A stretch of DNA of 36,717 nucleotides from an uncultured Colwellia sp. GTDB lineage: Bacteria > Pseudomonadota > Gammaproteobacteria > Enterobacterales > Alteromonadaceae. The notes under the pieces are model-generated. The model was not told the origin of the DNA. It ran no database searches and saw nothing but the letters and a program-made list of their open reading frames with translations. Location: contig CAJXUN010000046.1 in assembly GCA_913061475.1 (NCBI GenBank), positions 1-36,717 on the forward strand. The letters run 5' to 3'. Shown here in pieces: positions 3,308 through 23,593 of the stretch. The translations under genes were made by a program, and so were the position numbers. Position 1 is the stretch's first letter, and every line of letters starts with the position of its first letter.

Positions 3308-3332
3308 AGCTGGAGTTAAATAAAATAGACCC

Positions 3333-3464: not shown

Positions 3465-3492
3465 GTGTTTTAATCTTATGAAATTTCGCGTT

Positions 3493-3525
3493 AAAAAAAG
3501 CCCTGCAATCGCAGGGCTTTTTTTT
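3493..3525 (-). terminator. Original rho-independent terminator of the tRNA-Pro gene
   Basis: A perfect AGCCCTGC/GCAGGGCT stem with a four-base loop is flanked by A and T runs, so it works in either direction. On the minus strand it lies directly behind the tRNA 3' fragment. It was probably the terminator of tRNA-Pro before the island separated them. Confidence 0.85.
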
Positions 3526-3526
3526 G

Positions 3527-3590
3527 AATTGGTCGGAGTAGCAAGATTCGAACTTGCGACCTCACGTCCCCCAGACGCACGCGCTACCAA
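3527..3590. repeat. Left attachment repeat (tRNA-Pro 3' fragment)
   Basis: This is an identical copy of 23530-23593. It holds the anticodon loop, T arm and CCA end of tRNA-Pro on the minus strand but lacks the first 16 nucleotides of the tRNA, so it cannot be a functional tRNA. After 3590 the sequence diverges into island DNA. Confidence 0.92.
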
Positions 3591-3668
3591 ATACCCTTTA
3601 AAAACAAAGTATTATATTGTAACGTGTTACCTGGTTGGGTGTTTTTTTGTGGTATTTACCGCTAATAT

Positions 3669-3687
3669 GTTAGCCATCGGTTAGCCA
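3669..3687 (+). promoter_or_regulatory. Left integrase arm-type sites
   Basis: GTTAGCCA occurs at 3669-3676 and 3680-3687, direct copies with an 11-bp period, just before the integrase start. The same pair with the same spacing recurs at 23447-23465 near the other end. Arm-type binding for the integrase is inferred. Confidence 0.6.
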
Positions 3688-3695
3688 AAATAAGC

Positions 3696-5108
3696 GTGAC
3701 TATGCAAATATCAATTGAAAATATAGACCTCTTAAAATTTCCGCAACAAACACTTAATAGCACTGCAACATTCACAAATAAGTTTATTAAGCATGTACTA
3801 CCTAAAGCGAAACGTTTTGTAATTAACGATACCGAAGTCACTGGTTTAAAGTTGCGCGTTTCACCCAATGGTCGAAAGCGCTTTATAGCGGTAGGAAAGG
3901 TCAGAAAATCTAAAAAAGTTCGAACAAAAACGTTAGGTGATGCAAATATCATTTCTTTAGATGATGCACGTATTGCCGCTCGTCAGTTTTTGACGCAATT
4001 GCAATCCGGAATAGACGCCAATGAACTCGATGCACTACAAAAAATTGAAGCGTCAAAAAAAGCTTTAACTTTAAATGATGCTTTGAATAATTATGTTACG
4101 GACAGACAACTAAAACCAAAGACTGTGGCTAGTTATCATTACGAAATACCTAAATATTGCAAACTATTCCTGTTTAAGAACGTTTGTAACATTACCGAAA
4201 ATGAGATTTGCGAATGGTATTTGGAAAATAAGCATAGGCCAACAAGTATAGATAAGGCATTTAGATCATTAAGAGCTATATTTGAATATTTATTGAGTAC
4301 TAAGGTTATCTCACATAATCCTTGTACTGCTGTTACAGCACGTAAGCTTAGATATAAAATAAAGCCTAGAACTAGACGTATCGAAACTTATGACCTAACA
4401 AAGTTTATGGACGCATGGTTGTACTTATTGCAAAAGGGCCGAATTGGTACATTACAAGGTGATTTCGTACTTTGGTTATTAATGACCGGTTGTCGACTAA
4501 ATGAAGCAAGGACCATACGATGGTCAGATCTTGATATTGAACAACTTGCCGTAACAATCATTGATACTAAAAACAATCACCCACATGTTTTACCCTTAAC
4601 ACCGCTAATGAATGATTTATTGGACAGACGAAAATTTGATAATCCTAGCGCTAACCCCTATATTTTTGTTGCTAAAAAAGGGAAAGGGTACTCAGATAGT
4701 AAACACTTAATTGACTGTCGAAAAACGCTAGACAAAATAACGACGACCGCTAACATACCTCAAATTAGGCCTCATGATTTACGTCGAACTTTTACTACAA
4801 TACTTGACGAATTAGATGTCAGTGAAAGTAATATTAAAGCGTTACTTAACCATAATGACGGCACGGTAACAAGGAAGCATTATTTGCAAGCTACTAACCT
4901 CGAGGTAAAGCGACGAAACTTGTGGGCTGTGGGAAAGTATTTGGAAAGAGCTGTTACTGTTGACGGAATAAATCAAGAAACAGGTCAATTATGTATATTT
5001 TCATGCGTCGGTTCTATTAGACAATTTATTTATGGCACGGCTACTTGTGACTTTAGTGAAATTAAAGGTAAACGTACTGCTAAAGAAATACTTGATGCTA
5101 TGCGATAG
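3696..5108 (+). CDS. int: Tyrosine recombinase (island integrase)
   Basis: This 470-residue integrase has an N-terminal arm-binding region (DUF4102-like, about 35-110), a core-binding SAM-like domain (about 125-215) and a catalytic domain. Visible catalytic residues are Arg267 (TGCRLNEA), His360 and Arg363 (HDLRR), His386 (LLNH) and Tyr396 (RKHY). It probably integrates and excises the island at tRNA-Pro. The first start is GTG 3696, with ATG 3702 two codons later; neither has a strong ribosome site. About 70 residues follow the catalytic tyrosine, longer than most relatives, and are cysteine-containing and of unknown role. It is the first island gene, reading inward from the left attachment repeat. 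Confidence 0.93.
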   Translation: MTMQISIENIDLLKFPQQTLNSTATFTNKFIKHVLPKAKRFVINDTEVTGLKLRVSPNGRKRFIAVGKVRKSKKVRTKTLGDANIISLDDARIAARQFLTQLQSGIDANELDALQKIEASKKALTLNDALNNYVTDRQLKPKTVASYHYEIPKYCKLFLFKNVCNITENEICEWYLENKHRPTSIDKAFRSLRAIFEYLLSTKVISHNPCTAVTARKLRYKIKPRTRRIETYDLTKFMDAWLYLLQKGRIGTLQGDFVLWLLMTGCRLNEARTIRWSDLDIEQLAVTIIDTKNNHPHVLPLTPLMNDLLDRRKFDNPSANPYIFVAKKGKGYSDSKHLIDCRKTLDKITTTANIPQIRPHDLRRTFTTILDELDVSESNIKALLNHNDGTVTRKHYLQATNLEVKRRNLWAVGKYLERAVTVDGINQETGQLCIFSCVGSIRQFIYGTATCDFSEIKGKRTAKEILDAMR

Positions 5109-5191
5109 AAAATGCTTAATATTTTAAAGCCCATTCGTAAATTTTTACCTTCATTTTAAGTGATTTTAGATCAATCATTATGAATTAAACT

Positions 5192-5221
5192 GCCCATTTT
5201 ATATTTTATTCAGAAGTGGGC
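5192..5221 (+). terminator. Weak hairpin after the integrase gene
   Basis: GCCCATTT and AAGTGGGC pair (one G-T pair) around a 14-base loop, 83 bases after the integrase stop. No long T run follows, so termination is uncertain. Confidence 0.35.
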
Positions 5222-5307
5222 TTATATTGATTGGAGATTTTTGTTTTAAATTTAAACAACTCTTGCTCATCAAATAATAATTTTCAAAAAAATATGAAAA
5301 AAAATTA

Positions 5308-5495
5308 GTCCCGTTTGACGGGACACCGCGCCATGTATTGGTTTTGTTAACAAGTCCCGTTTGGCGGGACAGTGCTTTTTATGTAGTTTCTATACACAAT
5401 GCGTAAATATTGAAGTGTTTCTGGTGAACCAGTTTTGACGAGTCCCGTTTGACGGGACAGTGAAAATGTACTAGTGCTACACGTAAAGTCCCGTA
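5308..5495. repeat. Array of GTCCCG palindromes (operator or origin iterons)
   Basis: Three 17-bp palindromes of the form GTCCCG-TTTGR-CGGGAC lie at 5308-5324, 5354-5370 and 5442-5458. A left half site GTCCCG follows at 5488-5493. Start-to-start spacings are 46, 88 and 46 bases. The half site ends seven bases before a TTGACA box. The 5109-5761 gap is otherwise very AT-rich and contains no convincing gene. The array may be operator sites for an island regulator, or iterons of a replication origin next to the replication genes. Confidence 0.75.
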
Positions 5496-5500
5496 TGCTG

Positions 5501-5530
5501 TTGACAAAAAAAAAGTGAAAAAATTTTATT
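5501..5530 (+). promoter_or_regulatory. Candidate promoter for the alpA-primase-repA operon
   Basis: TTGACA (5501-5506) matches the -35 consensus and TTTATT (5525-5530) is an AT-rich -10 candidate at 18 bases. It lies just behind the last GTCCCG half site, so a protein bound there could activate or block it. The leader to the alpA start is about 225 bases. Confidence 0.45.
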
Positions 5531-5691
5531 TTTTTTAGCTATTGAATTAATTCTTTATTCGAGTAACTTTTAAAAGGTCAAAACGCATCGAGAAACGCGA
5601 ATTGATGAAGTTAACCATTTGTTAAATCACCGCTTGAATTGTTGTTTTATTATACGATTTGAGGTTTTAATTGATTTGATAGGTGGTAGGT

Positions 5692-5730
5692 GTTCCCCCC
5701 CAAAGACGGCAATCTTAGATAGGGGGGAAC
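5692..5730 (+). repeat. C-rich leader inverted repeat upstream of alpA
   Basis: GTTCCCCCC (5692-5700) and GGGGGGAAC (5722-5730) are perfect nine-base arms around a 21-base loop. It ends about 30 bases before the alpA start, in the 5' leader of the likely transcript. Possible roles are attenuation or a binding site. There is no T run directly after it. Confidence 0.6.
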
Positions 5731-5761
5731 GGGTCTTACAAACAAACAGGAGTCACTAACG

Positions 5762-6178
5762 ATGACACCCAGCACAAATGTAACTGATCGCGGAAATCAG
5801 GTCAATGGCCTTGCCGGTCAACAAAACAACAGTAAGAATTTTCAAGTTAACACATCAAAAAATGTGCCAGAAATAGTTAATATTCAAGATGACTTGTTCA
5901 CATGTATTGGCACTCTCCGATTAATCAAAAAGGACGAAGTTTTGGCTTTGTTTAAGCTGTCAAAAAGTACCTTTTACGTACGGATTAATAACGGTTTAAT
6001 GCCTCCTTCAGTGCCACTTGGCGAGCGTGCTGTCGCATTCGTTCAGCATGAAATACAGCTAGTGCTAGCAGCTCAAGTAGCAGGTCGCAGTAACGAGGAG
6101 ATAAAGCAACTCGTTAGTGATCTAGTTAGTTTTCGCCAAGACATCTATGAGCGAGCGGTAAAGTCATGCAATATGTAA
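5762..6178 (+). CDS. AlpA-family DNA-binding regulator
   Basis: This 138-residue protein has a low-complexity, asparagine-rich N-terminus (about 1-48), then an AlpA/MerR-like winged helix: RLIKKDEVLALFKLSKSTFY (about 53-72), 'GLMPPSVPLGERAVAFVQHEI' spread over about 78-98, and a helical tail. AlpA proteins act as transcription activators or excisionase-like factors in P4-type satellites and PICIs. AGGAG nine bases upstream supports the ATG; no later methionine precedes the domain. The unusual part is the extra 50-residue N-terminal stretch. It overlaps the primase start by 13 bases, indicating one operon. The GTCCCG palindromes upstream are possible targets. Confidence 0.85.
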   Translation: MTPSTNVTDRGNQVNGLAGQQNNSKNFQVNTSKNVPEIVNIQDDLFTCIGTLRLIKKDEVLALFKLSKSTFYVRINNGLMPPSVPLGERAVAFVQHEIQLVLAAQVAGRSNEEIKQLVSDLVSFRQDIYERAVKSCNM

Positions 6179-7071
6179 ATGAAATGATTGCAGCAATGAC
6201 AAGCGATGGCTTACTTGTTGATAATTTAATTTTTGATGATCTAATCCACCGTGTTCCCACGATAGCGAAGCCGAATCAAAAAGATGGCTATTATGTCGCT
6301 TTTTCGGGGGGGAGCTTAGTGTATTACGGTAACTGGCTTACAGGGATTGAGAAGGCGCATTCGCTTCAAACCCAAGTTACTGCTCGTGATAATTCTTTAG
6401 CCCTTAGATCGGCTAAAGCAGCATATAAAGAAGCACGGCGTACGAAACAACTAGCAAGTGCAAAGCAATGTATATATCAATGGGAAAATGCTTTTAAAGT
6501 GTTAACTCATCCATACCTCATGAGTAAACAGATTAACCCATACGCCATTCGTGTAGACAAACACAATAATTTGCTTGTACCAATCATGGATGAACAAGGT
6601 GAGTTAATTAACCTGCAATATATTTTTCCTCAAGGTAATAAACGTTTTAAGGCTGGAGCGCGTGTTAAAGGTGGCGCTTTACAGTTAGGTACATTAACAG
6701 AGCAAACTACGCTATTAGTGTGCGAAGGCTATGCTACCGGCTGCTCTTTACATGAAGCTACAGGTTTACCCGTCGTAGTGGCGTTTAACGCGGGTAACTT
6801 GGAAAGTGTTTGTATTCGTGTAAAACAGATAAACCCAAGATTACGTATAATACTTTGTGCCGATAATGATCATCAAACTAAAGTTAAAACCGGTCACAAT
6901 ATTGGCCTAGAAAAAGCTCAATCTATTGCTGACAAAATTAATGTTCAAGTCTTGTGGCCAAATTTCGATAGTGATAATTCAGGTAGCGACTTTAACGATA
7001 TTCATTGCCAATTTGGATTAGACGCACTTCGTAACATGCTGTTACCAGCAATTAACGGAGGTGCGAGGTAA
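6166..7071 (+). CDS. TOPRIM-domain primase-like protein
   Basis: This 301-residue protein has a C-terminal TOPRIM domain. The conserved glutamate is in LLVCEGYATG (Glu187), and the aspartate pair is in ILCADND (Asp233, Asp235). The N-terminal half resembles the region before TOPRIM in phage and mobile-element primases, but I see no zinc-binding cysteine set. It probably makes primers for island replication, working with the RepA-like ATPase that follows with a TAATG overlap. ATG 6166 lies inside the alpA end; ATG 6184 is an alternative. No separate archaeo-eukaryotic primase domain is visible, so priming activity itself is inferred. Confidence 0.82.
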   Translation: MQYVNEMIAAMTSDGLLVDNLIFDDLIHRVPTIAKPNQKDGYYVAFSGGSLVYYGNWLTGIEKAHSLQTQVTARDNSLALRSAKAAYKEARRTKQLASAKQCIYQWENAFKVLTHPYLMSKQINPYAIRVDKHNNLLVPIMDEQGELINLQYIFPQGNKRFKAGARVKGGALQLGTLTEQTTLLVCEGYATGCSLHEATGLPVVVAFNAGNLESVCIRVKQINPRLRIILCADNDHQTKVKTGHNIGLEKAQSIADKINVQVLWPNFDSDNSGSDFNDIHCQFGLDALRNMLLPAINGGAR

Positions 7072-8408
7072 TGGCCGTTAAGTTCAAAATGGTATACGCG
7101 GACGAAATGAAGAAACGTGGCTTAGAACATATGCTTCAACCAACATCTAATTCAAATGCCGAGCTTGTTCCTAATCAAACTGAAACTGAATCATCACAAG
7201 TAACTATTGCAAATATCCCATCGCTTGGTGAAATTCCGCCCCAAAATTTGGGTATGAGAACAATACCTAACGACTTTAACCCCGCGGATATTCCCCCGCG
7301 AAATTGGATCATAAACAAATATATTCAAGGTAATTACATAACACTTATAGCCGCCGCTGGTGCAACGGGTAAGTCTATATTTACATTAACTTTGGCCGTA
7401 TCTGTAGCACTCGGTAAAGATTTACTCGATATAGGAACTACCGTGCAAGGTAATGTGCTTGTAATCAATAATGAAGATGATGACGTTGAATTAGATCGCA
7501 GGTTAGCTGGGATTTTTAACCTTTATCGGATTAGAAACCATGAAGTCAATAATAGGCTTTTTTTGAAAAGTGGTTATGGTAAACGTATTACGATTAGTAC
7601 TAAGAATGGGCAAACGATGATTAGGTCGCCTGACGTAGATAAAATAATAGCCGAGATTAAGCGTTGTGACATTAAGGTTCTGATTATTGACCCATTTGTT
7701 AGTACCCACCAAGAGCAAGAGAATGACAATTCAGCACTTGATGAAGTAATGAGTTACTACCGACAAATTGCGAGTGAAACAGGTGTGGCGATTGTACTTG
7801 TTCACCATACTAGAAAAAATGGTGATGAATCCGATAGGTTCGCGGGGGATGTAGATTCAATGAGAGGTGCAAGCTCGACTAAGGATGCAGCAAGACTGTG
7901 CTTCACGTTATCTAAAATGAGTGAAAAGTCAGCTGATAAGTATGGTATTGATTGGCGCGAACGTCACCAGTTAATACGTTTAGATGATGCAAAAAACAAC
8001 TTCACTTTAAACGCAGGTAAGCCTCGGTGGTTAAAGCTAGAAAGTGTTCGCATTGCCAATGGTGAATGGCTAGGTGTACCTAGGCCTTATAATTTACCTG
8101 AGCCCGCAACCTCTCAAAAGGCTACAGCAGAATCAAAAGAGCATACCATTTTTAGCTATATCGTTCGTGGGGTACTTGCATTAAATGGTAATGAAGGTGG
8201 TGCTGTAATTCGCCCTGAGCTTAAAAAGCAATTGTTAAAGGAAACCGATAATGAGAAATCAAAAATCGATAAAGACTTAAAAACATTGCCGAACGGTTCA
8301 TCAAAAGCTAGACGGGTGAAAGTTGACGGTACGTTTTATCGTATTTATCAAGTCGATGGTACACATGCCAAGGCAGCTAAGACTATTTATGTGATTGTTG
8401 ATCAATAG
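7071..8408 (+). CDS. RepA-like AAA ATPase (replicative helicase type)
   Basis: This 445-residue protein has a variable N-terminus (1-65), then a RecA-fold ATPase of the AAA_25/RepA type. Walker A is AAAGATGKS (94-102), a NNEDDD segment follows, and Walker B is KVLIIDPFVS (about 201-210). A VLVHHTRK sensor-like motif comes next. RepA of RSF1010 and relatives are hexameric helicases that unwind mobile-element origins. The C-terminal 90 residues look like a winged-helix DNA-binding region. ATG overlaps the primase stop (TAATG), so translation is coupled. The TACCC-rich region directly downstream may be its origin. Confidence 0.87.
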   Translation: MAVKFKMVYADEMKKRGLEHMLQPTSNSNAELVPNQTETESSQVTIANIPSLGEIPPQNLGMRTIPNDFNPADIPPRNWIINKYIQGNYITLIAAAGATGKSIFTLTLAVSVALGKDLLDIGTTVQGNVLVINNEDDDVELDRRLAGIFNLYRIRNHEVNNRLFLKSGYGKRITISTKNGQTMIRSPDVDKIIAEIKRCDIKVLIIDPFVSTHQEQENDNSALDEVMSYYRQIASETGVAIVLVHHTRKNGDESDRFAGDVDSMRGASSTKDAARLCFTLSKMSEKSADKYGIDWRERHQLIRLDDAKNNFTLNAGKPRWLKLESVRIANGEWLGVPRPYNLPEPATSQKATAESKEHTIFSYIVRGVLALNGNEGGAVIRPELKKQLLKETDNEKSKIDKDLKTLPNGSSKARRVKVDGTFYRIYQVDGTHAKAAKTIYVIVDQ

Positions 8409-8410
8409 AT

Positions 8411-8600
8411 ACCCAGTTACCCGTATTTAACCCAATTATATGCGGGTAACGTGTTTTTATTGGCCTAGGGGATAGTTTACCCGCTTACCCACTAAAAATA
8501 CAGGGTAAGCCCGTGAAACATACCGTGAAACCACTGTGGATGCTGAATACCCACGTACCCACTTACCCGTCTACTACGTAGATGAGCCTAAGGTGGGTAC
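8411..8600. repeat. TACCC/GGGTA motif cluster, candidate replication origin
   Basis: At least eight TACCC or GGGTA motifs fall in 190 bases on both strands. They include GTTACCCG (8416-8423) facing CGGGTAAC (8443-8450), TTTACCCG (8476-8483), CTTACCC (8484-8490), GGGTAAG (8503-8509), TACCCAC (8548-8554), a second TACCCAC just after it, CTTACCCG (8562-8569) and GTGGGTAC (8593-8600). The gap 8409-8665 has no convincing gene. Position beside the primase and helicase genes suggests iterons of an origin, or operators for terS. Which of these it is cannot be told from sequence. Confidence 0.6.
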
Positions 8601-8665
8601 GGCTCAACTGCCGTAGTACATGAATAATAAGAGTATCAAATGAATATTGAAAGTAGAGGTGGACC

Positions 8666-9124
8666 ATGCAAGAGTTAAACACTAAACAAACGCGTTTTGT
8701 TGAAGAATTTACGGTTGATTTTAACGCGAGTCAGGCAGCCGTTCGCGCTGGTTATTCTGAAAAGTCATCTCGTGCTATTGGTTGTGAGTTGTTGACAATA
8801 CCTAACATCAAAAAGGCAATCCAAACACGCGTTAAAGAGCTATCTAATGATGCTTTAGTTAACCGAGAACTCATTATTAGTGGTTTGCTAGCTGAAGCGA
8901 TGAACTATGGCGATAAGAGCTCACATGCCGCGAGGGTCAGTGCTTGGTCACAGCTTGCCAAAGTGTCGGGACTTAACATAGAAAGCAAGCCTCATGATGA
9001 CGTTCAGCAGTTATTGCGAGATATTACCGCGAACAATGCGGCGACTCGCAATGGTTTGCTACCTAAAGATAACATACCTCAGTACCAGCTCGATGCATTA
9101 AGGGCGAATGTTGATGACTATTAA
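8666..9124 (+). CDS. Phage terminase small subunit (TerS)
   Basis: This 152-residue protein matches the Terminase_2 family at its N-terminus: LNTKQTRFVEEFTVDFNASQ (4-23), then AAVRAGYSEKSSRAIGCELL, a helix-turn-helix that recognises pac/cos DNA, followed by a helical oligomerisation part. AGAGGTGG precedes the ATG. There is no large subunit, portal or capsid gene in the island. In PICIs a lone TerS redirects a helper phage's packaging machine to satellite DNA, which is the likely role here. It ends the rightward replication/packaging core and is followed by a C/G-rich hairpin at 9138-9176. Confidence 0.88.
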   Translation: MQELNTKQTRFVEEFTVDFNASQAAVRAGYSEKSSRAIGCELLTIPNIKKAIQTRVKELSNDALVNRELIISGLLAEAMNYGDKSSHAARVSAWSQLAKVSGLNIESKPHDDVQQLLRDITANNAATRNGLLPKDNIPQYQLDALRANVDDY

Positions 9125-9137: not shown

Positions 9138-9176
9138 CCCCCCCCCATGGACCAAATTCAAGAACATGGCGGGGGG
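9138..9176 (+). terminator. C/G-rich hairpin after terS
   Basis: Twelve-base arms (9138-9149 and 9165-9176) pair with one mismatch around a 15-base loop; the arms are a C run ending in CATG and CATGG followed by a G run. It lies 13 bases after the terS stop. There is no clear T run, so it may be a weak terminator or a 3' stabilising hairpin. Confidence 0.55.
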
Positions 9177-10856: not shown

Positions 10857-13295
10857 ATGGACAAAAGAAAGCTTAGCGAAACAGATATAATCACAAAATT
10901 TATCATGCCAGCGGTGAAAAATGCCGGTTGGAATGTTATGACGCAAATTCGCCAAGAGGTGAAGTTACGTGATGGCAAAGTGATTGTTCGTGGCCAGCTT
11001 GGTGTTCGCAAAACGGTAAAGTCGGCTGACATTGTGCTTTATCTTAAGCCTAATATTCCACTGGCTGTCATTGAAGCTAAAGCGAATAAGCATGAAATAG
11101 GTAAGGGCATGCAACAAGGGCTTGATTATGCTCGCTTGCTTGAGGTGCCTTTTGTCTTTGCCTCTAATGGCGATGGCTTTGTCTTTCATGACAAAACTAA
11201 CCCAATGATGCTTGAATCAGAAATACAATTATCCGACTTTCCAAGCCCTGAACGACTTTGGCAAAAATACTGCGCCTATCGTGAATTTAAAGCCGAACAG
11301 CTGCCATTAATAACTCAAAGCTATCACGATGATGGTAGTGGCAAAGCACCGCGCTATTATCAACTACAGGCGATTAATAAGACCATTGAAGCGGTATCGC
11401 AAGGTAAAAACCGTATGTTGTTGGTGATGGCAACCGGCACTGGTAAAACCTATACCGCCTTTCAAATTATTTGGCGCTTATGGAAGTCACGGCAGAAAAA
11501 GCGCATTTTGTTTTTAGCCGATAGAAACATACTGGTCGATCAAACCCGTATTAATGACTTTCAGCCATTCGGTCAAGCCATGACCAAAGTAACAGGTCGT
11601 AAAGTAGATCCTGCTTACGAAATTCATCTTGCCCTTTATCAAGCGCTAACTGGGCCAGAAGAAAGTCAGAAAGCCTTTAAACAAGTAGACCCAGATTTTT
11701 TTGACTTGATCATCATTGACGAGTGCCACCGTGGTAGCGCCGCAGATGACAGCGCATGGCGAGAAATTCTTGAGTATTTTAGTTCTGCCACGCAAATAGG
11801 CTTAACCGCTACGCCAAAAGAAACAGACGAAGTATCTAACATCGACTACTTTGGCGAGCCGGTTTATACCTACTCACTTAAAGAAGGCATAGAAGACGGC
11901 TTTTTATCGCCATATAAAGTGGTGCGCGTTGACCTTGATATTGACCTACAAGGCTGGCGACCTGAAAAAGATCAAACTGATGATAACGGTGAATTAATTG
12001 ATGACCGTATCTACAATATTAAAGACTTTGATCGCACTATCGTGATCAAAAATCGCACCGACCTTGTCGCGCAAACCATTACCAGCTACTTACAACGCAC
12101 CGACCCCATGGCCAAAACCATTGTCTTTTGTAATGACATTGACCATGCCGAGCGTATGCGTCGAGCTCTGATAAATTTAAACCCTGAACAAGTGGCGAAA
12201 AATGATAAGTACGTGATGAAAATCACCGGCGATGATGAAATAGGCAAGGCTCAGCTAGACAATTTTATTAACCCGAAAAAAGCTTACCCTGTTATCGCCA
12301 CAACGTCAGAGCTTATGACCACAGGTGTTGATGCTAAAACCTGTAAATTGGTCGTGCTAGATCAAAACATACAGTCGATGACCAAGTTTAAGCAGATCAT
12401 TGGCCGTGGCACACGTATTGACGATAAATACGGTAAGTTATGGTTCACCATTCTCGACTTTAAAAAAGCAACGGAATTGTTTGCTGATGAACGTTTTGAC
12501 GGTATACCTGAGAAAGTCATGGTAACTAAACCAGAGGACATTATTACCGGCGAAACGGAAGACGGTAGTTTTATTGATGAGCTTAGCGATGCAAATACTG
12601 ACGCCGATGATGCAAGTACTGATGGTGCAAACGAACCTGAACAAGACTATGTTAACAGCAAAAAAGAAGGCGCTGAAATTGACAGTGACTGGGGTAATGA
12701 CGAAGAAGAAAAGCGTTTCGTTAAATTCAAAGTCTCGGGAATTGACGTTAAAAAAATGGCCGAACGAGTGCAATATTACGATACCGACGGCAAGCTTGTA
12801 ACCGAGTCATTTAAAGATTACACCCGTAACACCATTAAAAAGCAGTTTTCTTCGCTAGATGATTTTACCCGAAAGTGGCAAAATGCCGACCGCAAGCAAG
12901 CGATCATAGATGAGCTGGCCAATGAAGGGGTTATTTGGCAAGCATTAGAGCAAGACGTGAGCAAAGATTTAGACCCTTTCGATCTTATTTGCCACGTAGT
13001 TTACGACCAACCGGCGTTAACGCGAAAAGAACGTGCTGAGAGCGTTAAAAAGCGCAATTACTTTACCAAGTATTCAGATGTTGCCCAGAAGGTATTAAAT
13101 GCCTTGCTTGATGGTTATGCCGATGATGGCGTTAAAGCGATTGAAGGCAAAGACGCGTTAAAGGCTAATACTATTGTTGATTTTGGTCGACCACTCGAAA
13201 TAGCAAAAAAAGCCTTTGGTGGCAAAGATGAATATAACAATGCGATCACTGAGTTAGAAGAGTTATTGTACGAATCGCCCAACAAATCAGCATAA
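10857..13295 (+). CDS. hsdR: Type I restriction enzyme R subunit
   Basis: This 812-residue HsdR is of the EcoAI/EcoEI length class. An N-terminal PD-(D/E)xK nuclease domain shows Asp58 (SADIVL) and VIEAK (Glu73, Lys75). Two RecA-like motor domains follow: Walker A ATGTGKT (192-198), DECH box IIIDECHRG (about 285-293), LTATPKETD, and motif [12 protein letters not shown]. An acidic linker (about 570-625) precedes the C-terminal domain that binds the methylase. In the complex with HsdM and HsdS it translocates and cuts unmodified DNA. AAGGGA precedes the ATG. It is followed by hsdM after 149 bases, so it may be transcribed with or apart from it. Confidence 0.96.
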
Positions 13296-13444
13296 TGCCC
13301 TTTAAATCGAGTTAAGCAACTAAACAGATAAACGTTAATAGATACAAATAACTTAAAACAACCAAATACGAAAAGTCATGGCTAAGCTAATAGACGAATT
13401 TAGCAGCCGTGACTTCACAAAATAAATAAAACAAAGAGAAGTTC

Positions 13445-14938
13445 ATGTCAGTCAGTTCAGTAATAAAGTCCATTCAAGATATTATGCGTAAAGATGCCGG
13501 TGTTGACGGCGATGCTCAACGATTAGGGCAAATGTCTTGGTTACTGTTTTTGAAAATATTCGACGCACAAGAAGAAGAACTAGAGTTTGAACAAACGGAT
13601 TACCAATGCCCGTTACCTGAGCAATACCTTTGGCGCAATTGGGCTGCCGACAACGAAGGCATAACCGGCGACGAGCTTCTTGAATTTGTTAACGACCAAT
13701 TATTCCCAGATCTTAAAAACCTCACCGCACCTATTAAGTTAAACCCACGTGGTTATGTTGTCAAAGAAGCGTTTAGCGACGCGTTTAACTACATGAAAAA
13801 CGGCACACTACTGCGCCAAGTGATCAACAAGCTTAATGAAATTGACTTTACCGACTCAGCAGAGCGCCACCTGTTTGGTGATTTATACGAGCAAATATTA
13901 AAAGATTTACAAAGTGCCGGTAATGCGGGCGAGTTCTATACCCCTCGTGCAATTACACGCTTTATTGTTGACCGTGTGGACCCTAAGCTGGGCGAAAGTA
14001 TTATGGACCCTGCATGTGGCACTGGGGGCTTCTTAGCTTGTTCGTTTGATCATGTGAAAAACAACTATGCTAAAACCGCTGATGATCACCAAACCTTGCA
14101 ACAGCAAATTCATGGCGTTGAGAAAAAGCAATTACCGCACTTACTGTGTACCACTAACATGTTGCTACATGGCATTGAAGTACCGGTGCAAGTTAAACAC
14201 GGCAATACCTTAAACAAGCCGCTAGCAAACTGGGACGATGAGCTTGACGTTATCGTCACTAACCCTCCGTTTGGCGGCACTGAAGAAGACGGTATCGAAA
14301 AGAACTTTCCGGCCGATTTACGTACCCGCGAAACCGCTGATTTATTTTTACAGCTTATTATAGAAATATTAGCTTCTCCAAAAAACGGTAAAAACGGTGG
14401 CCGTGCAGCCGTGGTGTTACCCGACGGCACTTTGTTTGGTGAAGGCGTTAAAACCAAGATCAAAAAGTTGTTAACCGAAGAATGTAACCTACACACGATT
14501 GTACGTTTACCTAACGGCGTATTTAACCCGTATACCGGCATTAAAACCAACATACTCTTTTTCACTAAGGGCAAGCCAACCGAAAAAGTCTGGTTTTACG
14601 AACACCCGTACCCTGACGGCGTTAAAAACTACAACAAAACCAAGCCAATGAAGTTTGAAGAGTTTCAAACCGAAATTGACTGGTGGGGTAACGAGGCAGA
14701 CGGTTTTGCTTCTCGCGTTGAAACCGAACAAGCATGGCAAGTCAGCATTGACGAAATTATTGCGCGCAACTTTAACCTTGATATTAAAAACCCGCATGTT
14801 GGCGAACAAATAAGCCACGACCCACAAGAGCTATTGAATGACTACGCTAAACAACAAGCGGATATTCAAGCCTTACGCGATCAGCTTAAAAGTATTTTAG
14901 CTAATGCCTTATGTAATAAAGAGCAGGGCGCGAAATAA
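13445..14938 (+). CDS. hsdM: Type I DNA adenine methyltransferase M subunit
   Basis: This 497-residue N6-adenine methyltransferase has an HsdM N-terminal helical domain (about 5-150), the GEFYTPRAI segment (about 162-170), the SAM-binding motif DPACGTGGF (188-196) and the catalytic NPPF (273-276). With HsdS it methylates the recognition site to protect self DNA. AGAGAAG lies upstream of the ATG. The stop overlaps the hsdS start (ATAATG), so the two are translationally coupled and kept in ratio. All key motifs are intact, so it should be active. Confidence 0.96.
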   Translation: MSVSSVIKSIQDIMRKDAGVDGDAQRLGQMSWLLFLKIFDAQEEELEFEQTDYQCPLPEQYLWRNWAADNEGITGDELLEFVNDQLFPDLKNLTAPIKLNPRGYVVKEAFSDAFNYMKNGTLLRQVINKLNEIDFTDSAERHLFGDLYEQILKDLQSAGNAGEFYTPRAITRFIVDRVDPKLGESIMDPACGTGGFLACSFDHVKNNYAKTADDHQTLQQQIHGVEKKQLPHLLCTTNMLLHGIEVPVQVKHGNTLNKPLANWDDELDVIVTNPPFGGTEEDGIEKNFPADLRTRETADLFLQLIIEILASPKNGKNGGRAAVVLPDGTLFGEGVKTKIKKLLTEECNLHTIVRLPNGVFNPYTGIKTNILFFTKGKPTEKVWFYEHPYPDGVKNYNKTKPMKFEEFQTEIDWWGNEADGFASRVETEQAWQVSIDEIIARNFNLDIKNPHVGEQISHDPQELLNDYAKQQADIQALRDQLKSILANALCNKEQGAK

Positions 14939-16650
14939 TGGCTGGCGTCGAAAAGTTAATCACTGAGCATATTGATGTCTGGACTAGCGCGATTAAAAAG
15001 CGCAATGCCACAGGCCGCGGCTCAAATAAGAAAATTGAATTAACCGGCATTAAAAAATTACGTGAACTTATTTTAGAGCTCGCAGTACGCGGTAAATTAG
15101 TACCGCAAGATGCTAGTGATGAACCGGCAAGCGTATTGCTTGAAAAAATTGCTGAAGAAAGATCGCAATTGAGCGAGGACAAGAAGATCAAAAAGCAAAA
15201 GCCATTACCTGTGATAACGGATGAAGCAAAACCGTTTGAACTACCGCTAGGTTGGGAGTGGGCAAGACTACAAACTATTATTCAAATATCATCTGGAAAT
15301 GGTCTAACTTCTACGCAAATGAATAAAAGTGGTAAAGTTCCTGTTTACGGTGGAAATGGTGTTACGGGCTATCATGACACTCCAAATGTAAATAAACGCA
15401 CTTTGGTAATAGGTCGTGTTGGTTTTTATTGTGGCTCTGTACACTTAACGCCAGAAAAAGCGTGGGTTACTGATAATGCATTTATTACTACTTTTGCTGA
15501 AAAAAACATAGATATTGATTACTTATCTTGGCTTTTAAAAGCAACTAATTTGAACGAGAATGATAGTGCTACAGCTCAACCGGTAATTTCTGGTCGTAAG
15601 TTATACCCTATAGTTATTTGTTTACCTCCACTAGCAGAACAATACAGGATCGTCGCTAAAGTAGATGAGCTGATGGCCTTGTGTGACCAGTTAGAGCAAC
15701 AAACTGAGCAAAGTCTTACTGCACAACAAACCTTAGTTGAAGTGCTGCTAGCGAGCTTAACAAGCGACATATCGACAGACGATGATAACAAAGAAGAGTT
15801 CCAAACCAGCTGGCAACGTATCGCTGAGCACTTTGACGTACTGTTCACCACCGAAGCAAGCATAGAGCAGTTAAAGCAAACCATTTTACAGCTAGCGGTC
15901 ATGGGTAAACTCGTCCCGCAAAACCCCAACGACGAACCGGCAAGTGTACTACTTGAAAAAATTGCCGAAGAAAAAGCCCAGCTCATTGCTGATAAAAAAA
16001 TCAAAAAGCAAAAGCCATTACCAGCGATTACGGACGAAGAAACGCCGTTTGAACTGCCAACAGGTTGGGAGTGGGCTAAGTTAGGGAACGCATTAAACAA
16101 AATAACTGATGGTACGCATCACTCGCCTATTAATGGTGATAGCGGTGAATACCTTTATATATCAGCAAAAAACATTAAAAATAATGGTGTACAACTTAGT
16201 AATGCAACTTACATTACTAAAGAAATGCACGATGAAATTTATAGTCGTTGTGATCCAGAATATGGCGATATTCTTTATATTAAAGATGGTGCTACTACTG
16301 GAATAGTTACAATCAATGATATTGATGAACCATTTTCAATGTTATCTAGTGTTGCACTACTTAAATGTCCCGCAGGGATACTCAATCGCTACCTGCTTCT
16401 TTCATTGAGGTCACCATTTTTTTATAAGGAAATGCGTGCGGGAATGAGCGGTGTAGCGATTACACGTGTAACGCTTAAAAAGTTAAATGTAGCTTCTTTC
16501 CCATTACCGCCACTAGCCGAACAACACCGCATCGTCGCTAAAGTCGATGAACTGATGGCCTTATGTGAACAACTCAAAGCTCGCCTAGCTGACGCCCAAA
16601 CCACTCAACTTCACCTCGCCGATGCCGTGGTTGAAAATGCGTTAACTTAA
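14938..16650 (+). CDS. hsdS: Type I restriction specificity S subunit
   Basis: This 570-residue HsdS has two target-recognition domains (about 111-228 and 383-535), each preceded by a near-identical block. Residues 41-111 and 312-382 share KLVPQ, DEPASVLLEKIAEE and KKIKKQKPLP. Each TRD is followed by an AEQ-RIVAKVDELMALC helix. The two TRDs read the two halves of a bipartite site. Length is above the usual 400-470 residues because of the long N-terminal (1-40) and central spacer (about 250-310) regions. The repeats are also similar at the DNA level and could recombine to swap TRDs. The zorA-like gene starts 51 bases downstream. Confidence 0.95.
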   Translation: MAGVEKLITEHIDVWTSAIKKRNATGRGSNKKIELTGIKKLRELILELAVRGKLVPQDASDEPASVLLEKIAEERSQLSEDKKIKKQKPLPVITDEAKPFELPLGWEWARLQTIIQISSGNGLTSTQMNKSGKVPVYGGNGVTGYHDTPNVNKRTLVIGRVGFYCGSVHLTPEKAWVTDNAFITTFAEKNIDIDYLSWLLKATNLNENDSATAQPVISGRKLYPIVICLPPLAEQYRIVAKVDELMALCDQLEQQTEQSLTAQQTLVEVLLASLTSDISTDDDNKEEFQTSWQRIAEHFDVLFTTEASIEQLKQTILQLAVMGKLVPQNPNDEPASVLLEKIAEEKAQLIADKKIKKQKPLPAITDEETPFELPTGWEWAKLGNALNKITDGTHHSPINGDSGEYLYISAKNIKNNGVQLSNATYITKEMHDEIYSRCDPEYGDILYIKDGATTGIVTINDIDEPFSMLSSVALLKCPAGILNRYLLLSLRSPFFYKEMRAGMSGVAITRVTLKKLNVASFPLPPLAEQHRIVAKVDELMALCEQLKARLADAQTTQLHLADAVVENALT

Positions 16651-16701: not shown

Positions 16702-18474
16702 ATGAGCAGTTTTTTAGAAGGACTTTTAAGGGGGCTTAAACCCGAAATGGTTACCAGTATTATCATTTTTATTATGATTGCTGTGTTCATAGTATCTTGC
16801 GTGTTATCGAAGAAAAACAAAGCAGTAGAGTTTGTGCATTATACGCCTACCTTGTTAACAACATTAGGTATTTTTGGGACATTTGTCGGCATTGTTATTG
16901 GTTTACTTGACTTTGACCACACAAAAATAGACGCGAGTATTTCTTTGTTATTAGATGGTCTTAAAACCGCTTTTATTACTAGTCTCGCCGGTATGCTTTC
17001 ATCTCTATTATTTAAAAGCCTTTTAACTACACCGCTCTTAAGACCAAAATTACAGCAGGATGAGGTAATTAGTGCTTCACCAGAGCAAATTTTATCGGCT
17101 ATGCAGAGTCAAGTTAAAGAGACACAAGCGCTTAAAGAAGCCATTGTTGGTAATGAAGAATTTACTTTGTTTGGCCAATTGAAGTTAATGCGTAGCGATA
17201 TGAACGATAATGCTAAGCTTGCCAAGAAGTTAACTGAAGAAAATGCAGAAAAGCAGCTTGAAAGTTTTACTGCTTTTTCTGACAAGTTATGGATAAAACT
17301 TCAAGACTTTGCGGATACATTGTCCAAGTCAGCTACAGAGCAAGTTATAGAAGCTTTGAAGCAAGTTATAACCGATTTCAATAATAATTTAACTGAGCAG
17401 TTTGGTGAAAACTTTAAACAACTGAATGCAGCGGTGATTAAGCTCGTTGATTGGCAAGAAAATTACAAACAACAACTTGAGCATATGCACACTCAATATG
17501 AACATGGTGTACAAGCTATTACGTTAACTGAAAGCTCGGTAGCGAATATCAGCGAACAGTCAAAAGCGATACCTCAAACCATGAATGATTTGCAACTTGT
17601 TATGGAAGTGAATCAACATCAAATAAGTGAACTAGAGAATCATTTAGAAGCCTTTAAAGATATTCGTGACCGAGCAGTAGAAGCGGTGCCTGAAATTCGT
17701 CAACAGGTTGAAAATACCGTGACAGAGATCACTAAAGCCGTTGGTGTGGCTAGTGCGCATTATGAAAAAGTTGTGGCTGAGTCAGATGTGTTTATCAAAG
17801 AAACGTTAACGGCAACCGATAATTTAATTGAAAACTTTGTTACAAAATCAGAGCAAAGTGCTTCGTTAGTTGCAGATAAACTGATTGAAAGCTCGGAAAC
17901 GATTGGCAAAAACATTGATTTAGCGGGTACTGAGTTTACTAATAATACCGCGAGAACCAATGGTAGCTTACAAACGGCTTCAGACCACTTACAAAGTCAA
18001 ACAGAGTTGATTAAGCAGCACCTAAACGATGCGGTAATTGACTTAAACAATAACATGAGAGAAATGATAGCGACGTTAGTTGATGACGCTAAGAGTATGA
18101 GTACAACGCTAAGTGACGCTAATAAATCACTAGCTTCTGATACTAATGAAGCCCGAGAAGCCTTTGTGGGCTCTAACGAGAAGTTACAGCAGCAAATGCA
18201 AGCAATGCTTGAGGAAGCAGCGTCACAACAAGTTAAACAAGCACAACGTACTTTTGATGCAATGGCAGAGCAAATAAAACAACAAGTAGGTTTGACTGGC
18301 GAAGCCGTAGAAAAACAAGTGGGTATTATTGACCAAGCTATGCAGCAAGAAATTAACCGAGTAATGAATGAAATGGGTACATCGTTAGCGCAAATTGCCG
18401 GTCAATTTACCCGTGATTATAAAAACTTAACATTAGCGATGCAGAAAGTAGTTAAAGAGCAGGTAAGTGCCTAA
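16702..18474 (+). CDS. zorA: ZorA-like MotA/ExbB-type channel protein with long coiled-coil tail
   Basis: This 590-residue protein has a MotA/TolQ/ExbB-like membrane part with helices at about 17-36, 51-70 and 86-106 (the second contains LLTTLGIFGTFVGIVIGLLD). About 470 residues of almost purely helical, Gln/Glu/Asn-rich coiled coil follow. This layout is that of ZorA in Zorya anti-phage systems, where a ZorA pentamer and ZorB dimer form a proton-driven complex with an intracellular tail that senses phage entry. AAGGAAAAATAG precedes the ATG. The stop overlaps zorB (TAATG). A MotA-family protein in another cell-envelope system is the main alternative; the partner genes make Zorya most likely. 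Confidence 0.82.
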   Translation: MSSFLEGLLRGLKPEMVTSIIIFIMIAVFIVSCVLSKKNKAVEFVHYTPTLLTTLGIFGTFVGIVIGLLDFDHTKIDASISLLLDGLKTAFITSLAGMLSSLLFKSLLTTPLLRPKLQQDEVISASPEQILSAMQSQVKETQALKEAIVGNEEFTLFGQLKLMRSDMNDNAKLAKKLTEENAEKQLESFTAFSDKLWIKLQDFADTLSKSATEQVIEALKQVITDFNNNLTEQFGENFKQLNAAVIKLVDWQENYKQQLEHMHTQYEHGVQAITLTESSVANISEQSKAIPQTMNDLQLVMEVNQHQISELENHLEAFKDIRDRAVEAVPEIRQQVENTVTEITKAVGVASAHYEKVVAESDVFIKETLTATDNLIENFVTKSEQSASLVADKLIESSETIGKNIDLAGTEFTNNTARTNGSLQTASDHLQSQTELIKQHLNDAVIDLNNNMREMIATLVDDAKSMSTTLSDANKSLASDTNEAREAFVGSNEKLQQQMQAMLEEAASQQVKQAQRTFDAMAEQIKQQVGLTGEAVEKQVGIIDQAMQQEINRVMNEMGTSLAQIAGQFTRDYKNLTLAMQKVVKEQVSA

Positions 18475-19190
18475 TGAATGCGATATTTGGTAGCCGTAAA
18501 AGTAATGGTGAATCAGGTGAGCATTGGTTAACAATTTCTGACTTGATGGCTGGTTTAATGATGGTGTTTTTATTTATCGCTATTGTTTTTATGCGCCATA
18601 CCATGAAAGAAAACGAAAAGATTAAGAATGTAGCAATTGCCTTTCAAGAAAACCAAGTGGCAATATACACAGCTTTAACTAAAGAATTTCAATATGATTT
18701 AGCTGACTGGGGGGCAGCGATAGATAAAGATACGCTTGCGTTTAATTTTAATTCACCGGATGTGCTTTTTGATAATGGTGAAATAGAACTTAAGCCAACG
18801 TTTACAAATATTTTGAATGACTTTTTTCCTCGGTACCTTAATGTATTGAAGCCATTTCGAGATTCGCTAAATGAGGTGAGGATCGAGGGGCATACTAGCA
18901 GTGCATGGAATATTGCAAGTACTGACAGTGAAGCTTATTTCAATAATATGCGTTTATCGCAAGGAAGAACTCGTTCGGTGTTGTCATATCTGTACGGCTT
19001 AGTGCCAGATGAAACAGATTGGATAAAACGTAGTATTGCGGCTGTCGGCTTTTCATCTTCAAGGTTAATTTTTAACGAAGACGGTACAGAGGATGCTGAA
19101 CAATCAAGACGTGTTTCATTTAGAGCGATCACCAATGCTGATATTCAAATAAAACGGATTTTGGAAGGTACTAATGAAGCTAACGGTTAA
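18474..19190 (+). CDS. zorB: ZorB-like OmpA/MotB-domain protein
   Basis: This 238-residue protein has one N-terminal membrane helix (about 22-40) beginning SDLMAGLMMVFLF. Asp23 is placed like the proton-carrying aspartate of MotB and ZorB. The periplasmic domain is OmpA-like: VRIEGHTSS (about 135-143) and a LSQGRTRSVLSYL helix (161-173), expected to bind peptidoglycan and hold the complex fixed. It is coupled to zorA by a TAATG overlap and to the HNH gene by a 17-base overlap, so the three are one operon. The proton path residue and OmpA motif are both present. Confidence 0.82.
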   Translation: MNAIFGSRKSNGESGEHWLTISDLMAGLMMVFLFIAIVFMRHTMKENEKIKNVAIAFQENQVAIYTALTKEFQYDLADWGAAIDKDTLAFNFNSPDVLFDNGEIELKPTFTNILNDFFPRYLNVLKPFRDSLNEVRIEGHTSSAWNIASTDSEAYFNNMRLSQGRTRSVLSYLYGLVPDETDWIKRSIAAVGFSSSRLIFNEDGTEDAEQSRRVSFRAITNADIQIKRILEGTNEANG

Positions 19191-20316
19191 CTTTGGTCAA
19201 CTGCATCACTGTGTGCAGCTTATGGGGGCAGAAGAGGCCGATTTTGAGTTAGGACTTGCCTTTAAAGATATTGACCCGATTGATGCGGCCCTCAGAGATG
19301 GCCAAGAACTTGGTAAAGATATAGACCTGACTGAAATAGAACATAGTAAAGGCGTTCTTAGCTATATGGGGCGGCAAGTCATGCTCTATATTCCAGATCA
19401 AGGCTCTAATATACTTGAAGTGCTTCGTAATGGTGAAGAAGGGCGTCGTATACATATTGCGGAATGCAGCTCGTTGGAACATATGAGAGCTACTGGTCGC
19501 TTCCCACGTTACCAAGTGACAGCAGATACCAGTGGTTATTTACCTGTTTACGGTATCAATAGTGATAATAATCAAAGTATAGATGATAAAAAAGCCAAGT
19601 TGTTTGTATGTAAAAACTGCATAACAACACTCAATTATCAAGGTTATGCAATAAAGTCAGGTGCAGAAAAAAGAGATATTTTTATAAATTTTAATTTAGC
19701 GAAGTTTTTCAAACATTATAGTTCTTACTTTAAAAGTTTACCTAAACCTAGTGGCTCTGAAAAGTCAGCTAGTTATACCCCAGATTGGAAAGAGATTTCA
19801 GCCAGGTTAAAAAAACAATCGAATTATATGTGTGAGCAATGTGGTGTTGATTTAGATTCTGAAAAAAAACTACTTCATGTTCATCATGTTGATGGTGTTA
19901 AATCGAATAATCAAAACAGCAACCTTCGAGTTCTGTGTGCAGATTGCCATAAGAAGCAGCCACACCATGATCACTTGTATATCAAAGCGTCTGACGTTTT
20001 AACTATTAATAGATTGCGACGAGAACAGCATAAATTTGATAATACTACTTATAATCAGCTTATTGGTTGTGCGGATACTGCGCTTGAAGGACTCTTGTTA
20101 AAGTGCAAAAGTTCACGTTTACCTATTGCTGAGTTGGGTATTGCTGTTCAGTACGAGCATACATCAGTGTCATTCGACTTGTGCTGGCCACGGAAAAAAG
20201 TTGCTGTACTGATAGATATGAGAAACGAAATGCTTGTTAAAAAACATGGTTGGACTGTGTTTTCAGCAACGCAAGCTCTTGAACAGTTCCAAGACTTTCA
20301 ACGTTATGTTAGATAG
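19174..20316 (+). CDS. HNH endonuclease, ZorE-like effector
   Basis: This 380-residue protein has an N-terminal region of unknown type (1-140) and a CKNC pair (146-149). A zinc-linked HNH nuclease follows: CEQC (220-223), HVHH (235-238), N (about 249) and CADCH (255-259). The C-terminal part has SFDLCWPRKKVAVLID (about 333-348), a pattern that resembles the core strand of PD-(D/E)xK-like domains, but catalytic residues look incomplete. In type II Zorya the effector ZorE is an HNH protein encoded after zorAB, matching this position. GGAAGG precedes the ATG. I cannot confirm ZorE homology beyond the HNH and context. Confidence 0.8.
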   Translation: MKLTVNFGQLHHCVQLMGAEEADFELGLAFKDIDPIDAALRDGQELGKDIDLTEIEHSKGVLSYMGRQVMLYIPDQGSNILEVLRNGEEGRRIHIAECSSLEHMRATGRFPRYQVTADTSGYLPVYGINSDNNQSIDDKKAKLFVCKNCITTLNYQGYAIKSGAEKRDIFINFNLAKFFKHYSSYFKSLPKPSGSEKSASYTPDWKEISARLKKQSNYMCEQCGVDLDSEKKLLHVHHVDGVKSNNQNSNLRVLCADCHKKQPHHDHLYIKASDVLTINRLRREQHKFDNTTYNQLIGCADTALEGLLLKCKSSRLPIAELGIAVQYEHTSVSFDLCWPRKKVAVLIDMRNEMLVKKHGWTVFSATQALEQFQDFQRYVR

Positions 20317-20374: not shown

Positions 20375-20998
20375 ATGGATGAGCTATTAGAAAAGTCAGA
20401 AGCCCTTAGCAGTGAATTTAGCCGTATATTTGACTATGGTCCTGTTGATGACAGTAGACGAATTACGTCGAGTTGGGTTATGTGTTTAGTTGCATTAGAG
20501 CACAGTGGAAGCACACGTCAATTAGCTATGTGTGGCCACTATACTTCGGCTATTTGTATTATTCGCTCTCAGTTTGAGGCGTTAACACGAGCGATGTGGC
20601 TATGTTATGCCGCTAGTGATTCAAAAATTGAAAACACCATGAAAACGTTAAGCGAGCTTTCGCAAAATGCTGACCAAAAACCGAGTAACAGCGAAATGAT
20701 TAAAGCGTTGAGTGGTAAAGCACCAGAGCAAGCGGTCTTAATGCTAACAGAATTTAGAGAGGTTCAATGGAAAGCGTTGAACTCATACGTTCACGGTGGT
20801 GTTCACGCACTACAGCGTCATGGTGCTGGTTATCCTGAACAATTGATAAAAGATATTGTTAAATCGTCGAATGGCTTGTTGTCAATGACGGCTATGATGG
20901 CGGCTATTTTAACCGGTAATGATGTTATAGCTAAAGACGTCGCAAAAATTCAACGTCGTCATGAAGCGTGCTTACCGACATTACTTGAGCCTAATTAA
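20375..20998 (+). CDS. DUF6988/DUF5677-like helical protein
   Basis: This 207-residue, all-helical, soluble protein has a segment around 'ICIIRSQFEALTRAMWL' (about 61-77), then 'WKALNSYVHGGVHALQRH' (about 131-148). The Arg, Glu and His residues of these two helices resemble the DUF5677/DUF6988 families, often found near defence genes and suspected of nuclease-like (HEPN-like) function. It starts 58 bases after the HNH gene on the same strand with GGAAGT upstream, so it may be a fourth gene of the Zorya-like operon. The family call is tentative and no activity is known. Confidence 0.7.
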   Translation: MDELLEKSEALSSEFSRIFDYGPVDDSRRITSSWVMCLVALEHSGSTRQLAMCGHYTSAICIIRSQFEALTRAMWLCYAASDSKIENTMKTLSELSQNADQKPSNSEMIKALSGKAPEQAVLMLTEFREVQWKALNSYVHGGVHALQRHGAGYPEQLIKDIVKSSNGLLSMTAMMAAILTGNDVIAKDVAKIQRRHEACLPTLLEPN

Positions 20999-23365: not shown

Positions 23366-23446
23366 TTATCCACCGAGTGAAACCTGCATTTTAATAACCT
23401 GTGTATATAGTTCTGGTTAAAAATTATTTTGAAAAAGTTTGATATG

Positions 23447-23465: not shown

Positions 23466-23470
23466 GACAT

Positions 23471-23514: not shown

Positions 23515-23529
23515 AATTTATATTACTTT

Positions 23530-23593
23530 AATTGGTCGGAGTAGCAAGATTCGAACTTGCGACCTCACGTCCCCCAGACGCACGCGCTACCAA
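23530..23593. repeat. Right attachment repeat
   Basis: This 64-bp sequence is identical to 3527-3590. It forms the 3' part of the intact tRNA-Pro gene plus three flanking bases. Divergence begins at 23594 on one side and 23529 on the other. Confidence 0.92.

Follow-up and report, generated by a model that had tools for sequence, protein, structure and literature searches.

A 20-kb island at a tRNA-Pro gene of an uncultured Colwellia sp. is probably a phage satellite, of a kind that resembles the phage-inducible chromosomal islands (PICIs). The stretch of DNA analyzed, referred to here as the window, comprises 36 717 nucleotides (contig CAJXUN010000046.1 of assembly GCA_913061475.1), and the island within it encodes an integrase, an AlpA-type regulator, a primase, a RepA-like ATPase, and a small terminase subunit (TerS), together with defence genes and umuDC. 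It is best described as a PICI-like variant and not as a proven PICI. The new point of this analysis is that its TerS appears to be chimeric, joining a Vibrio-phage-type head to a tail of another phage type. No paper on this element was found in a literature search limited to open-licence papers.

Core genes and a second element

The island is delimited by 67-bp direct repeats (66 of 67 bases identical) with a spacing of 20 003 bp; its features are collected in Table 1. The tRNA-Pro(ggg) gene that carries the right repeat is the sole Rfam match in the window at gathering score. A first-pass annotation of the sequence had proposed the five core genes, the lack of structural phage genes throughout the 20 kb, and a TerS unaccompanied by a large terminase subunit (TerL). 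Family matches in Pfam and PHROGs confirmed all five genes, and the other two statements held in a Pfam scan of the 16 main island open reading frames (ORFs; small and overlapping ones were left out), which returned no capsid, portal, tail, TerL, or relaxase families. The PHROGs and PADLOC scans each covered nine of these 16 ORFs. Within this scope, the integrase, regulator, and replication module that characterize PICIs are present, and structural or lytic phage genes are absent. The small terminase falls in the Terminase_2 family, and not in a non-terminase helix-turn-helix family as had been considered; it also matches phrog_51 (1.5e-21) and a small terminase in the PDB (8.8e-11). It is thus an own TerS of a true terminase family, of the type known from the Staphylococcus aureus pathogenicity islands (SaPIs).

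The core proteins have only distant relatives among phage and plasmid records. Matching phage records (238 for TerS and 95 for the primase) are all below 60% identity, as are 802 plasmid records for the ATPase, one of which covers at least 80% of the protein. Plasmid proteins annotated as RepA-family helicases, found beside IncQ-type repC, are 28.5% identical to the island ATPase.

Table 1. Features of the tRNA-Pro island, in window coordinates.
Feature	Position	Strand	Evidence
Left attachment (att) repeat, tRNA-Pro 3' fragment	3524..3590	.	67-bp direct repeat of 23527-23593
Tyrosine integrase with Arm-DNA-bind_3 domain	3696..5108	+	PF00589 1.5e-19, PF13356 7.6e-10
Three near-identical 17-bp palindromes GTCCCGTTTGRCGGGAC, candidate operator or origin, int-alpA interval	5308-5324, 5354-5370, 5442-5458	.	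shuffles
AlpA-type excisionase/regulator	5762..6178	+	PF05930 2.2e-9
Stand-alone TOPRIM primase, 301 aa	6166..7071	+	PF13362 2e-12, phrog_2249 4e-66
AAA_25 RepA-type ATPase/helicase	7071..8408	+	PF13481 2.6e-39
Candidate replication origin and/or packaging (pac) site, 10 TACCC/GGGTA words	8409..8665	.	conservation and shuffles
TerS, Terminase_2 head (residues 1-104) and helper-type tail (residues 113-137)	8666..9124	+	PF03592 5.5e-20
Conserved hairpin after terS, candidate terminator or cis site	9139..9176	+	fold z -3.29, 0/200 shuffles
PEP-CTERM protein after terS	9399-9962		Pfam-scan ORF
Type I restriction-modification (RM), hsdR-hsdM-hsdS	10857..16650	+	PADLOC REase_I, MTase_I, Specificity_I
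Zorya type II (zorA, zorB, zorE)	16702..20316	+	PADLOC ZorA2 2.4e-251, ZorB2 3.8e-99, ZorE2 3.2e-138
DUF6988 / PDC-S52 candidate defence protein	20375..20998	+	PF22491 1.4e-62; PADLOC PDC-S52 7e-77
umuD-umuC, island right end, possibly part of the element	21708..23365	+	PF00717, PF00817
Intact tRNA-Pro(ggg) 23533-23609 with right att repeat	23527..23609	-	right repeat is the tRNA 3' part

The order int-alpA-primase-ATPase-terS recurs in a second species of the same genus (G010), inside a tRNA-Leu gene and between repeats that match at 71 of 72 bases and lie 24.2 kb apart. All five core frames are open in both elements, and umuDC occupies the far end of the G010 element, where umuC is split into two ORFs. 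The remaining cargo is different, and includes DUF4145 and DUF4238 proteins, a 1089-aa protein with LTD and Exo_endo_phos domains, an Endonuclease I, an HNH protein, and ORFs without matches. No structural genes were seen among the ORFs scanned in the two elements, which in G010 were part of the total. The suggestion that the five-gene order would be found elsewhere with other cargo was therefore borne out, although in one genome only and with diverged integrase and AlpA genes.

Divergence between the two elements is uneven along the core. The proteins encoded by the right-hand genes are closely similar (TerS and primase 89%, ATPase 91%), and those encoded by the left-hand genes are not (AlpA 51-52%, integrase 24-25%). 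Since alpA and the integrase gene are far more diverged, the recently shared unit is a module of three genes, not five. The DNA of this primase-ATPase-terS module is 91.1% identical over 2862 columns, compared with 81.7% for the chromosomal flank to the right of tRNA-Pro. Vertical inheritance of the module was ruled out on these grounds, and the same comparison indicates that it has been transferred between species. All three genes are under purifying selection: by a simple pairwise counting method, the ratio of nonsynonymous to synonymous divergence (dN/dS) is 0.106 for terS, 0.167 for the primase gene, and 0.191 for the ATPase gene. A TerS search of 60 genomes, comprising the host and its relatives, gave four matches, which were the host itself, G010, G052 (head only), and G017 (tail only). 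The ATPase search of 295 genomes of the family gave six, namely the host, G010 (91%), and four at 28-33%.

Conservation exceeds that of both neighboring genes in the 257-base interval that separates the ATPase gene from terS, where the two elements are 95.3% identical. This interval contains 10 TACCC/GGGTA words in the island and 11 in G010, a count attained by none of 1000 shuffles (mean 2.2, maximum 7), and 15-nt repeats are present at 8410, 8478, 8548, and 8556. In the available description of PICI origins, two sets of iterons surround an AT-rich stretch immediately 3' of the replication gene (PMC6092414). The island iterons are likewise placed 3' of rep, and the spacer between them is only mildly AT-rich. 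The interval is likely to be a PICI-style origin and/or packaging site, and it could be the target of TerS equally well as an origin. The region of the hairpin that follows terS is 90% identical to G010 over 51 columns.

Other local structures lie at the left of the core. The GTCCCGTTTGRCGGGAC palindromes give six strand matches, a count reached by none of 100 shuffles, and no alignment was obtained between the int-alpA intervals of the island and of G010. A hairpin upstream of alpA (5686-5740, loop CGGCAA) has a counterpart with an altered stem in the G010 element. It is possibly a leader RNA; its shuffle control is weak (9/200), and its apparent conservation rests on two sequences.

A putative chimeric TerS

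The two parts of the island TerS point to different groups of phages. Residues 113-137 match 17 of 25 positions at the C-terminal end of a 236-aa prophage TerS in G017, a genome of another genus than the island host. The G017 gene is a terS by phrog_51 (3.4e-16) and is followed by TerL, portal, and major head genes. A metagenomic phage, L203, has a TerL that is 80% identical to that of G017, and its TerS tail matches at 17 of 24 positions. When residues 105-152 of the island protein were compared with phage TerS ends, none of 2000 shuffles reached the score for G017, L203, or L205. Among nine other TerS ends, the score was reached by 238 to 1996 of 2000 shuffles for seven, by 36 for Hafnia, and by 109 for Flyfo. 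The head gave another set of relatives, with 0 of 1000 shuffles for each of Vibrio 1.119, Hafnia, Cronobacter, and both TerS proteins of G052, and 8 of 1000 for Pseudomonas 222; it found no match in G017 (830/1000) or L203 (179/1000). The tail of the G010 protein also matches G017 and L203 (0/2000 each). A 51-residue tail search of 394 genomes of the order found, besides the host, only G017 (2.4e-5) and a weak match in G048 (0.008), and the same search of the phage collection gave one match, at E 1.

Known systems suggest what such a tail might do. In the available account of lambda, TerS contacts TerL through its C-terminal portion (PMC6739421), and pac-type SaPIs are described as using their own TerS to recruit the helper phage TerL to island DNA (PMC5052747), as would be expected here. 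By analogy, the tail of the island TerS may dock on the TerL of a helper, and the design of the protein would follow the logic of the SaPIs, with a DNA-reading head of its own and a helper-type tail.

A sequence of events can be proposed on this basis. Upon helper infection, the integrase, aided by AlpA as excisionase or activator, would excise the element between the tRNA-Pro repeats. Its replication by the primase and the RepA-type ATPase would start in the iteron region that separates the ATPase gene from terS. The N-terminal helix-turn-helix head of TerS would bind the packaging site of the element, and the C-terminal tail would recruit the helper TerL, leading element DNA into helper particles. 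In this scheme we infer induction and packaging, the function of the tail, and the travel of the defence genes with the core.

Known satellites and related loci

Several types of phage satellites have been defined by their gene content. Capsid-forming PICIs (cfPICIs) have their own capsid and a packaging module that includes TerL, and P4-like satellites have psu, sid, and a P4 alpha-type primase. Membership of both groups was ruled out, the first by the lack of capsid and TerL genes among the 16 ORFs scanned with Pfam, and the second by the absence of psu, sid, and an alpha-type primase among the Pfam and PHROGs matches.

The closest resemblance is to the PICIs of Gram-negative bacteria. As far as the published accounts that were available describe them, those of the EcCICFT073 group share with the island a rightward order of int, AlpA, primase/rep, and origin, with iterons 3' of rep. 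They have accessory genes and no structural genes, again as in the island, and some have terS (PMC6092414). The island differs from them in its stand-alone TOPRIM primase and AAA_25 ATPase, its two defence systems, and umuDC. EcCICFT073 itself is described as using Rpp with the phage TerS, not a TerS of its own, whereas the island has its own (PMC6739421). The SaPIs have an Stl repressor where the island has AlpA, and the island is without a recognized capsid-size gene and has Gram-negative kin (PMC5052747).

Two further types of satellites share AlpA and a primase with the island. The phage-inducible chromosomal minimalist islands (PICMIs) of Vibrionaceae also have an integrase in common with it, and AlpA is reported as their key switch. 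PICMI115 is 6.1 kb long, and PICMIs integrate adjacent to fis, whereas the island lies in tRNA-Pro; the published search model for PICMIs requires a DUF3987/DUF5906 primase and Fis (PMC10803314). Membership was ruled out by the TOPRIM primase with AAA_25 and by the tRNA-Pro site. The AH14b satellite of an Antarctic Pseudomonas is described as having AlpA and its own primase, as in the island (PMC4936722).

Loci with a related primase occur more widely. Matches at E 1e-20 or better were found in 19 of the 394 genomes of the order, the host included, and seven of the eight loci examined have a stand-alone primase with AlpA or an integrase nearby. One query found no TerS in these loci, two of which (G509) end just after the primase. 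For example, loci in Psychromonas and Psychrobium (G367, G413, and G386, the last a 6.6-kb contig only) have AlpA (43-45%) followed by a stand-alone primase (37-40%), with DUF5906 or DUF3631 where the island has AAA_25, and no TerS was found in them. In G367, an integrase beside tRNA-Ser lies upstream and a type I RM system downstream.

A pattern scan of 84 980 species gave 368 genome loci. Among the best 80 of these, many of them cut by contig ends, 78 had local matches and 19 had a stand-alone primase; TerS was found in one of the 19 and in one locus with a fused primase. A set of 82 viral-contig loci (80 kept of 598 and two from the primase search) had TerS in two, in each case with a fused primase. 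Searches of viral contigs for close relatives found none with TerS and none with 27 bases taken from the iteron region, and the primase gave two matches there, at 33-34%. The ATPase scan of the genome collection was negative in all 43 candidate stretches, and has little weight since it also missed G010. In Endozoicomonas sp. SESOKO1 (L279, 2046-14011), a type I RM system is followed by a 219-aa protein, AlpA, a primase, proteins of 587 and 128 aa, TerS (1.4e-20), and a serine recombinase. This is apparently another satellite with a lone TerS, so that the type may have emerged on more than one occasion.

The defence block and alternative readings

The right-hand part of the island is shared with a relative that appears to lack the core. 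In G001 (loci L213/L209), the island order is kept near tRNA-Pro, with ZorA (94%), ZorB (91-93%, the gene lying in two ORFs), ZorE (76%), DUF6988 (67%), and umuDC (90-91%), and Zorya is preceded by a scar that joins 56 nt of hsdR to the hsdS end. Searches of G001 with TerS and the ATPase gave no match. The conserved order and the hsdR scar indicate that an ancestor of G001 held RM-Zorya-DUF6988-umuDC near tRNA-Pro. This block is either a relic of an island-like element or a part of the locus that was there before the core arrived.

The tRNA-Pro locus is itself a hotspot, with a DUF3413 gene at the right and a variable left side in the 15 relatives read. In six of these, umuDC is present at tRNA-Pro, beside the tRNA in five; in G006, a PEP-CTERM ORF lies between them. 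The distance from umuC to tRNA-Pro is 20 kb in G001 and 5 kb in G009. A second copy of the tRNA end (at least 55 nt, at least 95% identity) was found among 17 genomes of the genus only in the window and in G012, where a 54-kb stretch (C29 2354-56680) separates two copies of the tRNA-Pro 3' end and umuDC lies outside it. This stretch bears on a criterion for Gram-negative PICIs, by which prophages never use their att sites. In a UmuC tree, the window, G001, and the G010 element form a group with support of 0.906, and the window pairs with the G010 element alone with support of only 0.343. This grouping and the place of umuDC at the end of the G010 element speak for umuDC as part of the element; its occurrence beside tRNA-Pro in relatives where no element was found at that tRNA speaks against this. 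The DNA left of the left repeat (3494-3529) resembles that downstream of tRNA-Pro in G004, G011, G012, and G016. On the left of the right repeat (23445-23526), the resemblance is to the corresponding DNA of G006, G008, G010, G013, and G014. Both junctions therefore look chromosomal on their left side, as if the element had acquired its right end from a chromosome.

A number of observations weigh against a helper-dependent satellite. The full core is present in only two genomes, those of the island host and G010, and alpA and the integrase gene, with synonymous divergence of 1.5 and 1.9, have had a different recent history from the other three core genes. PICIs are typically 12-15 kb in the available account (PMC6092414), smaller than the 20 003 bp of the island and the 24.2 kb of G010. 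The parts of the literature consulted identify no terS homologue in the PICMIs, which are AlpA satellites (PMC10803314), and report no terminase gene found in AH14b (PMC4936722). The umuDC genes at the right end of the island are also common neighbors of tRNA-Pro. The tail match spans 25 residues, and the head of L205 is weakly related to the island head (1/1000), so the clean mosaic is limited to two phages, G017 and L203. In two further genomes of the family with 62-64% TerL, the tail alignment of L304 is the same as that of L205 (0/1000), and the match fails for L303 (267/1000) despite a 62%-identical TerL. The G010 tail likewise has no match to L205 (335/2000). The search for a helper also counts on this side. 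A TerL of the G017 type was found in none of the 17 genomes of the genus (E 1e-40), and phrog_2 gave only weak matches in the host (four) and G010 (two), the best at E 2.8e-8 and 33.1 bits; these were not counted as TerL because the same search was positive in 11 of 14 control genomes.

The first-pass annotation had also suggested looking for a helper with a matching packaging site, and none was identified: blastn between the island and candidate helpers gave no common sequence better than E 2.1. A Terminase_2 search of the 88 contigs of the host genome returned the island TerS alone. Across the family, the G017-type TerL occurs in five of 395 genomes (E 1e-40). Since none was found in the genus, a helper would have to arrive from outside, belong to phages that await sequencing, or have another TerL.

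The main alternative, to which we give real but lesser credence, is a composite island. The satellite core would adjoin a block of defence genes (RM-Zorya-DUF6988-umuDC) that is part of the tRNA-Pro locus. The block could move independently of the core, for example by homologous exchange after lateral transduction, and its genes would be neighbors and not cargo. The ordered block and scar in G001 without TerS or ATPase matches, the position of umuDC beside tRNA-Pro in other relatives, and the resemblance of the two repeat flanks to different relatives are all consistent with this. Synonymous divergence is also lower in primase-ATPase-terS (0.27-0.65) than in umuDC (1.1-2.5). Movement of nearby defence islands by phage and PICI lateral transduction has been published, as seen in the available part of the report (PMC12829572), and would let the block move alone. 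However, excision by the integrase should remove the block together with the core, since it lies inside the att repeats; the G010 element likewise ends with umuDC, and the G001 block may be a relic of such an element.

The proposal of a satellite-borne arsenal mobilized by a helper is thus upheld in part. The satellite core is supported by the second element, selection on TerS, the iterons, and the tail match; the helper-mobilized arsenal is weakened by the missing helper TerL and the core-free block in G001, and it is possible that the defence genes are mobilized as satellite cargo. As a tentative extension of the satellite reading, TerS may be an adaptor made by recombination, its tail copied from a TerS of the helper group and naming the helper, with packaging that runs on into the adjacent RM-Zorya-umuDC genes and could disseminate them in the absence of the core. 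Such run-on from a site beside terS would explain the core-free block in G001.

It is unlikely that the island is an integrative element of another kind, which replicates after excision, is moved by general transduction, conjugation in trans, or natural transformation, and uses its TerS-like protein as a DNA-binding regulator. The failure to find a helper and the related AlpA-primase elements in which TerS was not found fit this, and islands with intY, some with alpA, are reported to move by jumbo-phage transduction in the available part of one study (PMC12595487), but the protein is a strong Terminase_2 match under purifying selection, and its tail is one that otherwise occurs in TerS proteins encoded next to TerL. 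A decayed prophage that retains integration, replication, and TerS genes was rejected as very improbable; all five core families have phage-family matches, but the gene set occurs twice, at different tRNAs and with five open frames, three of its genes are under selection, and neither element has a structural gene among the ORFs scanned.

Some smaller features of the window were also recorded. A CTG-N10-CAG box resembling a LexA site lies directly before umuD (21677-21692), which suggests that umuDC may be under SOS control. To the left of the left repeat, a candidate transposase remnant was judged by eye (3300-3480), and the right end of the window (36663-36717) resembles the start of the G001 tRNA-Ser region (94.5% over 55 bases).

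If the satellite reading is true, the island would be a Gram-negative example of packaging with an own TerS, which is best known from the staphylococcal islands. The helper phage would be predictable from the 25-residue tail of the satellite TerS, so that a usually slow experimental search becomes direct. It would also provide a specific mechanism for the accumulation of Zorya and restriction systems at a tRNA locus.

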